The notes under the pieces: generated by a model
Databases searched by the model: none
Seen by the model: the letters and a program-made list of their open reading frames with translations, nothing else
What the model was told of the DNA's origin: nothing
Origin: [Lactobacillus] rogosae
GTDB lineage: Bacteria > Bacillota > Clostridia > Lachnospirales > Lachnospiraceae
Assembly (NCBI GenBank): GCA_900112995.1
Contig: FONU01000011.1
Location: forward strand, 62,001 to 126,000
Length of the DNA: 64,000 bases
Reading direction: 5' to 3'
Position numbers and translations under genes: made by a program
Shown: one piece after another, positions 15,965 through 26,165 of the stretch
Position numbering within the stretch: the stretch's first letter is position 1
Layout of the letters: each line of letters starts with the position of its first letter

Positions 15965-16011
15965 AAACAGGCAGACTTTAACGAAGTTTAGATGTTAAAG
16001 TCTGCCTGTTT
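15965..16011 (-). terminator. strong terminator facing the minus strand
   Basis: An 18-bp perfect stem (15965-15982 with 15994-16011) around an 11-nt loop. Read on the minus strand it ends GCCTG followed by six T, a canonical terminator for the YcxB-like gene. The structured repeat at 16157 would then lie in that gene's 3' untranslated region. Confidence 0.75.
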
Positions 16012-16156: not shown

Positions 16157-16296
16157 CAGTTGTGTAGCTTTACTATATTGCAAGCTGGGTGCTTTTGCAG
16201 CCGTCGACACTTAGCGGCTGTATTTTAGCCGCTTACGTGTTACAAGCAGCGAGAGCGTGCCCAGCGGTAATATAGTAAAACTACACAACGTCCGTA
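16157..16296. repeat. structured intergenic repeat, copy 1
   Basis: 140-bp nested palindrome. The outer stem is 16159-16179 with 16269-16289 (20 of 21 pairs). Next is GCTGGG (16184-16189) with CCCAGC (16260-16265), then AGCGGCT (16213-16219) with AGCCGCT (16227-16233), and a small hairpin GC-GAGA-GC (16249-16256). It ends ACGTCCGTA. Copy 2 at 25955-26100 has the same plan and conserved blocks. No ORF of note. It stops 5 bp short of the YcxB-like stop codon. The rest of the 470-bp gap after kduD holds only the two terminators and AT-rich sequence. Confidence 0.85.
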
Positions 16297-16301
16297 TGAG
16301 C

Positions 16302-16826
16302 CTAGTACACTATCCTGCACTTATTTCTATCTACATGCTCCATAATAAATCCGCCCACATTCTTCTTGATATTCTCAGGCATATCATTACTATTAAGCAT
16401 TACAACCATTTGCTTCCCGTTAAACAACATATAATATCCATATTTGAAATATACAGTTGTGAATTGTTCCCATTCGTAAGTATATATTAAATTATGGTCT
16501 GGGATATCAGCAAGTATCGCGTTATCCATTAATGTTATTGTGCAGGGAGCATCTTCTGATGAATCTCTGTGCTTCAAGTGGTAATTAACGCTTGATTTGA
16601 ACTGGAATGCAAATATGTATATAGGATAGAACCAGCATATTGCATATATAATTAATAAAAATGTGTTGTATCTGCCAGAGGCAAGCATAATTATTGAGAT
16701 AACGGCAGGAACCCACGAAAGTATAAGTTCGACAGGGTTTCTTAAAAATCTGTTCCAGAATACAATCTTTTTGTAATCATTGCCTGAAGCTTTCAGGGTA
16801 GTATTATATTTGTAAATATTATCCAT
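16302..16826 (-). CDS. YcxB-like membrane protein
   Basis: 174 residues. Two hydrophobic segments near residues 33-75 (ELILSWVPAVISIIM and LLIIYAICWFYPIYIF) are followed by a soluble region containing YTYEWEQFTTVYFKYGYYMLF, which resembles the C-terminal domain of the YcxB family. Function unknown; such proteins are membrane-bound with a small beta-rich cytoplasmic domain. AGGAGA precedes the ATG on the minus strand. It is a single gene divergent from the GGDEF-EAL gene across 261 bp. Confidence 0.65.
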   Translation of the reverse strand: MDNIYKYNTTLKASGNDYKKIVFWNRFLRNPVELILSWVPAVISIIMLASGRYNTFLLIIYAICWFYPIYIFAFQFKSSVNYHLKHRDSSEDAPCTITLMDNAILADIPDHNLIYTYEWEQFTTVYFKYGYYMLFNGKQMVVMLNSNDMPENIKKNVGGFIMEHVDRNKCRIVY

Positions 16827-25661: not shown

Positions 25662-25954
25662 AAAATAGTTGTTAAAAAAGTAACCCCCCCCTTAATTAAA
25701 AAGTAAGACTCAATCTTACACAATCACCAGCAGACAAAATTAAAAGATTGAAAGAAAATCAATCAAAAACACAAAGAAATAGGTTATCAAATAAGTAACC
25801 AGTTTAGGCGAGCAGATTTCCTGCCCGCCTAAACGCATAGAAATTAATAACATATAAAATGAAAATGTAAAAAAGAAATAACAAAGAGCAAATAACAAAG
25901 AGTAAAGAAGATACATAAAGCTGATAAACAATTCAACGCAGATTAATCGCAACC
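25662..25954 (+). other. non-coding gap after pstS with hairpins and a C8 tract
   Basis: No gene seen. It holds eight C at 25684-25691, a small hairpin GTAAGA/TCTTAC (25703-25719), GGTTA/TAACC (about 25783-25801), and a strong imperfect hairpin GTTTAGGCG with inner GCAG/CTGC (25802-25834). The last lacks a T run on either strand, so it is not a standard terminator. It may protect the pstS message 3' end. Confidence 0.5.
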
Positions 25955-26100
25955 CAGTTGTGCGGAGTGTTATATTGCAAGCTGGGTACTGTTGAAACCG
26001 TCGGCACTTAGCGGCTGTCCTTTAGCCGCTTAGTACCGCTACGGTTTCAAGTAGCGTAAGCGTGCCCAGCGGTAATATAACACTCCGCACAACGTCCGTA
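25955..26100. repeat. structured intergenic repeat, copy 2
   Basis: 146 bp. The outer stem is 25957-25976 with 26074-26093, 20 perfect pairs. Inside are GCTGGG (25981-25986) with CCCAGC (26065-26070), TTGAAACCGT (25992-26001) with ACGGTTTCAA (26041-26050), AGCGGCT (26010-26016) with AGCCGCT (26024-26030), and GC-GTAA-GC (26054-26061). It ends ACGTCCGTA like copy 1. Compared with copy 1 the middle of the outer stem differs on both sides yet still pairs. It lies between pstS and pstC, in the operon direction. Confidence 0.88.
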
Positions 26101-26165
26101 GTTATTAATCCTCCTTCCGTTGAATATATAACAGCGAAATTTTATATGTTAAGAATGGAGAAAGT

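Follow-up and report, generated by a model that had tools for sequence, protein, structure and literature searches.

What kind of element stands twice in the window, the whole 64,000-nucleotide stretch of the [Lactobacillus] rogosae genome analyzed here, with the same shape and partly different letters? The initial annotation had offered two answers: either a family of structured RNAs, or a mobile element that is palindromic and non-autonomous. Both copies lie where it had placed them, on the + strand. Read directly, both start with CAGTTGTG, continue with ATATTGCAAGCTGGGT, have AGCGGCT/AGCCGCT and GTGCCCAGCGGTAATAT in common, and finish with CACAACGTCCGTA. The small loops are of the GNRA type as claimed (GAGA in copy 1 and GTAA in copy 2), and the middle of the outer stem differs in letters between the copies and stays complementary in each. 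The features are as follows.

16157..16296, + strand: copy 1, whole element, damaged (sequence, sister comparison, RNAfold; 77.7 bits with covariance model R1)
16159..16181, + strand: copy 1, outer stem P1, 5' arm (RNAfold fold)
16213..16233, + strand: copy 1, apical hairpin AGCGGCT..AGCCGCT (sequence and fold)
16249..16256, + strand: copy 1, GNRA mini-hairpin GC-GAGA-GC (sequence and sister copies)
16267..16289, + strand: copy 1, outer stem P1, 3' arm (RNAfold fold)
16290..16296, + strand: copy 1, conserved 3' foot GTCCGTA (sequence)
25955..26100, + strand: copy 2, whole element, intact (sequence, RNAfold; 121.8 bits with model R1)
25957..25978, + strand: copy 2, outer stem P1, 5' arm (RNAfold fold)
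25981..25989, + strand: copy 2, P1 inner end GCTGGGTAC, partner strand GTGCCCAGC (fold, pair counts)
25992..26050, + strand: copy 2, inner hairpin P2 with a 2-nt CT bulge and a U.U mismatch (fold, pair counts)
26010..26030, + strand: copy 2, apical hairpin around GTCCTTT (sequence and fold)
26054..26061, + strand: copy 2, GNRA mini-hairpin P3, GC-GTAA-GC (sequence and fold)
26072..26093, + strand: copy 2, outer stem P1, 3' arm (RNAfold fold)
26094..26100, + strand: copy 2, conserved 3' foot GTCCGTA (sequence)

RNAfold returned the fold as first described, at -75.1 kcal/mol for copy 1 and -90.6 kcal/mol for copy 2, and paired the GNRA mini-hairpin region (16249..16256) of the damaged copy 1 otherwise. 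By eye against sister copies, about 12 nt of the 3' strand of inner hairpin P2 are replaced by 2 in copy 1, which marks it as a damaged member, apparently a relic of the folded core. Copy 1 has an SDR-type dehydrogenase ORF on one side and, on the other, a convergent ORF (16302-16826, - strand) whose stop codon follows the foot after 5 bases, and copy 2 lies between presumed pstS and pstC (all these names were read from ORF translations alone). After the SDR ORF, upstream of copy 1, there is also a long hairpin at 15965-16011 (AAACAGGCAGACTTTAAC .. GTTAAAGTCTGCCTGTTT), perhaps a terminator. Outside the foot of copy 2, a further inverted repeat (ATTCAACG/CGTTGAAT) occurs at 25931-25938 and 26118-26125, and the palindrome may extend farther. 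A 7-bp direct repeat beside copy 2 was set aside, since by eye it lies itself within a palindrome.

Covariance model R1 (35 pairs) was built on an alignment of 12 diverse members, with copy 2 in the seed and copy 1 outside it. Because R1 finds copy 2 in the window with an E of 2e-32 and copy 1 with 8e-20, the resemblance of the two copies is, by this model, not due to chance. In its own genome the element has 13 places with BLAST E below 1e-10 and 24 matches to the model. Matches were found in 17 of 22 genomes of the genus and in 119 of 299 genomes of the family (118 of 298 genera). A sample of the class gave matches in 12 of 392 genomes, all 12 in the family of the window (the family's share of the 392 is not shown), and at least 6 genomes of that family are listed there without a match. 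A strict DNA pattern recovered at least 117 stretches in named genomes; among the 80 listed, 62 are labeled Lachnospiraceae, 3 Blautia, 14 carry Clostridium, Eubacterium, higher Clostridia or Bacillota names, and 1, which we take for a mis-binned contig, is labeled Muribaculaceae.

Neither the window nor the 10 family-level loci scanned had a match above the Rfam 15 gathering threshold, and the two matches at E<=1 in the 10 other loci were both far under threshold. The view that no known family fits this element therefore stands as far as Rfam is concerned, and the further copies with paired substitutions that the initial annotation had looked to proved abundant. A literature search, with supplementary tables outside its reach, found no paper naming the element. 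G035, a genome of another genus of the family in which R1 has no match, holds a related shorter repeat (GAGCACTTAGCGGCTGTCCTTTAGCCGCTTACGTGCG and variants; L026, L034, L042, L044 and L050), which adjoins a second hairpin, partly as direct repeats.

The architecture combines a long outer stem P1 of free sequence, a bulged hairpin P2 with conserved letters and the GNRA mini-hairpin P3. In the seed alignment, 20 of 35 pairs changed on both sides vs 9.6 in shuffles, and 90.9% of cells pair vs 80.2%, figures that lean towards the proposed structure since it was drawn from those same 12 sequences. Among 10 hand-picked full-length copies out of the 24 own-genome matches, identity between copies is 53% in the variable stem block (shuffled, 47%) and 88% in the core; one arm agrees with the opposite arm of the same copy at 82%, a slightly low figure (the 3' block is one base longer). 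Relatives have copies with wholly different stems. In 28 family-level members, folded and read by eye, neither the outer stems nor the longer apical ones seem related between lineages, yet they are paired all along. Most of these 28 have in their core CGG/CCG with a bulge of the CT type on the 3' side, ACT/AGT containing a mismatch, an AGC-GNRA-GCG mini-hairpin and, where the form is short, an apical loop resembling TGTCCTTT; L190, L192 and L202 deviate from parts of the conserved core (by eye). For 6 elements at sites shared by 3-4 species, 766 pair comparisons (non-independent) were unchanged and 32 were double changes keeping the pairing, all 32 from 2 of the 6 elements; a further 10 were single changes to or from G.U, 2 gave A.C and 18 were otherwise unpaired.

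Placement was followed in a genus set (89 elements, holding the same site from several species and leaving out five low-scoring or partial matches), a family set and a contig set; for the contig set, the neighbor-protein, wobble and orientation/foot counts draw on the 80 listed loci (84 elements) of the at least 117. L209 was excluded from the ORF-overlap, neighbor-protein and outer-stem wobble counts, and identical stems or flanks were counted once for strand stability, outer-stem wobble, foot/orientation and direct repeats. With ORFs called mechanically, 1 of 89 elements in the genus set overlaps an ORF of more than 200 aa, and the contig set has 3 overlaps among at most 84 elements. No fixed orientation upstream of a gene class was found overall: elements between co-directional genes are sense or antisense at 61:56, and 32 others lie between convergent and 30 between divergent genes. 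By set, the sense to antisense ratio is 21:30 (genus), 7:10 (family) and 33:16 (contig), the last alone leaning to sense, with 20 of its 84 elements unoriented because they lie near contig ends or have no neighbor.

The same junctions were compared between relatives. At aspS-gatC, a divergent pair stands in G002, G012, G017 and G019, but the gap of the own genome, 129 bp long, has no match; after gatB, the own genome has an element and G017 a short gap. In G001, the model marks elements at both the aspS-gatC and the gatC-gatA junction. The pst locus of 4 relatives has no model match, nor has the SDR locus in 10 of 11 relatives (one locus incomplete); five relatives' SDR loci share the convergent neighbor of copy 1, and the exact empty sites of the window copies are too diverged to align. 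Some units occupy one and the same site in four species; this agrees more with long residence or a role in the host than with ongoing movement.

Evidence of movement comes from a class of units with terminal inverted repeats (TIRs). In G013 and in other genera, the core lies inside units of about 210 bp with ends YAGGYRWTTGCGAAAC, and the own genome has one copy of this class at C28:36151-36359. Direct repeats of 7 bp or more flank 36 of 74 TIR-bounded units (in 28 of the 36 they are 9-12 bp long), and re-paired flanks, used as a control, gave direct repeats in 1.4%. Such repeats at 28 of 55 core-bearing units indicate, from the sequence, that core-bearing units have transposed; 8 of 19 coreless units also have direct repeats. 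Two loci (L211 and L213) hold units of about 80 bp with YAGGYRWTTGCGAAAC-type ends and no core, and the one in the own genome (L213) is flanked by the direct repeat ATGTAATTAA. The window copies have neither TIR ends nor, by eye, a clear target-site duplication, and how they arrived is something we infer.

We think it likely that both window copies belong to a family-wide, non-autonomous mobile repeat of Lachnospiraceae with a conserved folded core and an outer stem of arbitrary sequence. Of the two answers offered at the start, the mobile one is well supported by the number of copies, the intergenic placement, an orientation without overall bias, the absences and the inverted pairs, and for the class of MITE-like units also by the direct repeats. 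The choice between the two was itself only partly right, since the core is RNA-like and the behavior is that of a mobile element. A transposase encoded elsewhere would move the units in trans, in cut-and-paste style for the MITE class, and the solitary and paired units with a GTCCGT foot, the window copies among them, would be related to these or derived from them and mobilized by that enzyme or a different one. The core would be retained since its fold is recognized, either by the moving enzyme or by a host factor that acts on transcripts running through the core. Selection for the hairpin, copying from arm to arm during replication, or the two together would keep the outer stem complementary.

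A partner enzyme or carrier was sought in several places. When the 695 proteins encoded around 201 elements were clustered and the 25 largest clusters read by eye, these contained no mobile gene and no recurrent specific neighbor; the top clusters are ABC ATPase, sensor-kinase-like and response-regulator-like proteins, and others include same-site orthologues. Twenty loci around seemingly unpaired or widely spaced TIRs were re-scanned for TIRs, and the ORF lists of five (L241, L243, L254, L256 and L259) hold no transposase, no parent transposon with YAGGYRWTTGCGAAAC ends and, by eye, contain housekeeping-type genes. The exact pattern has 0 matches in a viral contig set. Four unannotated records deposited as unverified bacteriophage (MT838426, MT836394, MT837545 and MT839508; L378-L381) match by blastn, with two strong, one weak and one absent match to the model; they are probably bacterial DNA, because the neighboring genes look chromosomal in translations read by eye. 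Among plasmids, the element had no match and the MITE a single one, of 22 bases. These results do not point to a phage or a plasmid as carrier.

It is possible, if doubtful, that the element is instead a structured RNA class, in which a functional core RNA, bound by protein or cleaving, is transcribed from many loci and the MITEs merely spread the core. The recurrence of the bulge, the U.U mismatch, the GNRA loop and the apical loop across genera, with exceptions such as the three named above, would suit such an RNA, as would the greater stability of the top, GTCCGT-ending strand in 66 of 87 elements (358 G.U pairs vs 250). The same strand is better in 62 elements vs 24 with DNA parameters, and much of the bias can stem from a few conserved core pairs. 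At the inner end of P1, pairs switch between C-G and U.G and between A-U and G.U on one side, giving 113 G.U vs 9 A.C, and P2 and P3 together give 25:20, both counts coming from an alignment fitted to the structure. We conclude that the core structure is genuine and bears marks of selection acting on a single strand, and we read the core as folding as a single strand, RNA or DNA. An RNA class is opposed by an orientation to genes that is not fixed overall, even though the contig set leans to sense, by the lack of a recurring partner gene in the 25 largest clusters and by the lack of an Rfam relative. A tentative and rather unlikely variant is that a family-wide functional RNA spreads as cargo of transposable hairpins: its core would be recognized as RNA, and its outer stem would be rebuilt, self-complementary but with different letters, in every lineage or copy, the shape being kept and the sequence not.

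We regard as unlikely a DNA hairpin of the REP/REPIN type, whose foot (ACGGAC on the bottom strand) and hairpin would be read by a structure-specific single-strand transposase. Such a hairpin would account for the intergenic scatter, for the foot and for the inverted pairs with feet outward. CGTCCG or GTCCGT stands on the 3' side in 38 of 87 distinct elements and on the 5' side in 1; as controls, the complement occurs on the 5' side in 3 of 87 and the reversed motif in 1 of 87 (the 5' CA of the element is a reading by eye). Of 30 pairs of neighboring elements no more than 1 kb from each other, 23 are divergent, 114-848 bp apart; this count takes in some identical sites from several species. 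Outside eight loci chosen for holding pairs, 12 of 15 are divergent (own genome 3/4, G002 6/8, elsewhere 3/3). The clearest paired units read ACGGACG-hairpin-spacer-hairpin-CGTCC, and the spacer of the aspS-gatC unit (L127, L133, L130 and L116) has a hairpin-like part of its own, CGACGAGCAAAGCGATGTCG and close variants. However, three genomes rich in the element (G012, G007 and G008, with 23, 19 and 15 element matches; one of the three is 87% complete) have no match to Y1_Tnp (PF01797), and a Y1/RAYT partner was rejected; Y1_Tnp matches occur in 13 of 22 genus genomes, including the own genome (fragments), and do not follow the distribution of the element. REP hairpins are also much shorter than the hairpin of this element, and the MITE class has TIRs and direct repeats, neither of which HUH transposition is known to make.

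The element could also be an old, functionless intergenic palindrome whose arms are complementary only via template switching in replication, which we consider quite unlikely. This bears on the claim of the initial annotation that compensatory change across the long stem is what selection for pairing leaves: the pairing is indeed kept, but the inference is weaker than stated, because G.U barely exceeds A.C in the outer stem (282:258 by a loose count, 120:80 and 61:38 by strict ones) and because arm-to-arm copying in DNA replication can make the same pattern without selection. Homogenization of arms by template switching is reported in E. coli and yeast (PMC7202029 and PMC8604942), and the pairing of the outer stem may owe something to it. 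A stem block that is near random between own-genome copies beside an 88% identical core is what such a palindrome would show. However, terminator-like hairpins, an RNA control, have a G.U:A.C ratio of 44:20, which is not significantly different from 120:80 (with 64 informative cells only), and a palindrome without function leaves the conservation of the core across 118 genera and the high copy number unexplained.

Finally, intrinsic terminators or cis-regulatory leaders, which hairpins near gene ends and the place of copy 2 between presumed pstS and pstC might suggest, are highly improbable, as neither copy has a U-tract directly after its hairpin (GTCCGTATGAG and GTCCGTAGTTA come next instead) and the orientation is not fixed overall.

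A non-autonomous mobile repeat with a folded core, our preferred reading, matters in several ways. Within a major gut family, 119 of the 299 genomes sampled have matches to this repeat, which nevertheless has no Rfam entry. Both the search for regulatory RNAs and genome assembly in this family can be confounded by it, and transcripts of the operons it has entered (pst, aspS-gatCAB) may be affected. How inverted repeats remain complementary as their letters are replaced is a further question for which it provides a natural test.

Among known systems, the element shares with MITEs that it is short, free of ORFs, multicopy and palindromic, and one of its classes is bounded by the TIR YAGGYRWTTGCGAAAC and flanked by direct repeats, most of them 9-12 bp long. 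It differs in carrying a complex conserved folded core common to many genera, in the lack of TIRs at the window copies and in having no parent transposon among the loci searched. With REP, REPIN and BIME sequences, which are associated with RAYT transposases, it shares intergenic hairpins that often form inverted pairs and in some cases lie within operons; in contrast, its hairpin is about 150 nt with a branched core, and the three element-rich genomes have no Y1 transposase. The mobile or repeat sequence candidates of PMC11109978 are the nearest idea in the literature searched. One of them, MRSC-65-2, likewise has a covarying stem and many copies per genome and is thought to be selfish, but its shape is that of one long stem containing a UYCCGG repeat, whereas the window copies lack CCGG and the element branches and has a GNRA hairpin. 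PMC8040213 reports 250 palindromic candidate structured RNAs from human microbiomes, which like this element are palindromic, structured and intergenic, some being suspected of a REP-like nature; the four examples described there are mostly or entirely from Bacteroidetes. Compared by description, the element may be among those 250. Set beside these systems, it is a real, widespread and uncatalogued folded repeat with mobile behavior, of the MITE/REPIN kind.
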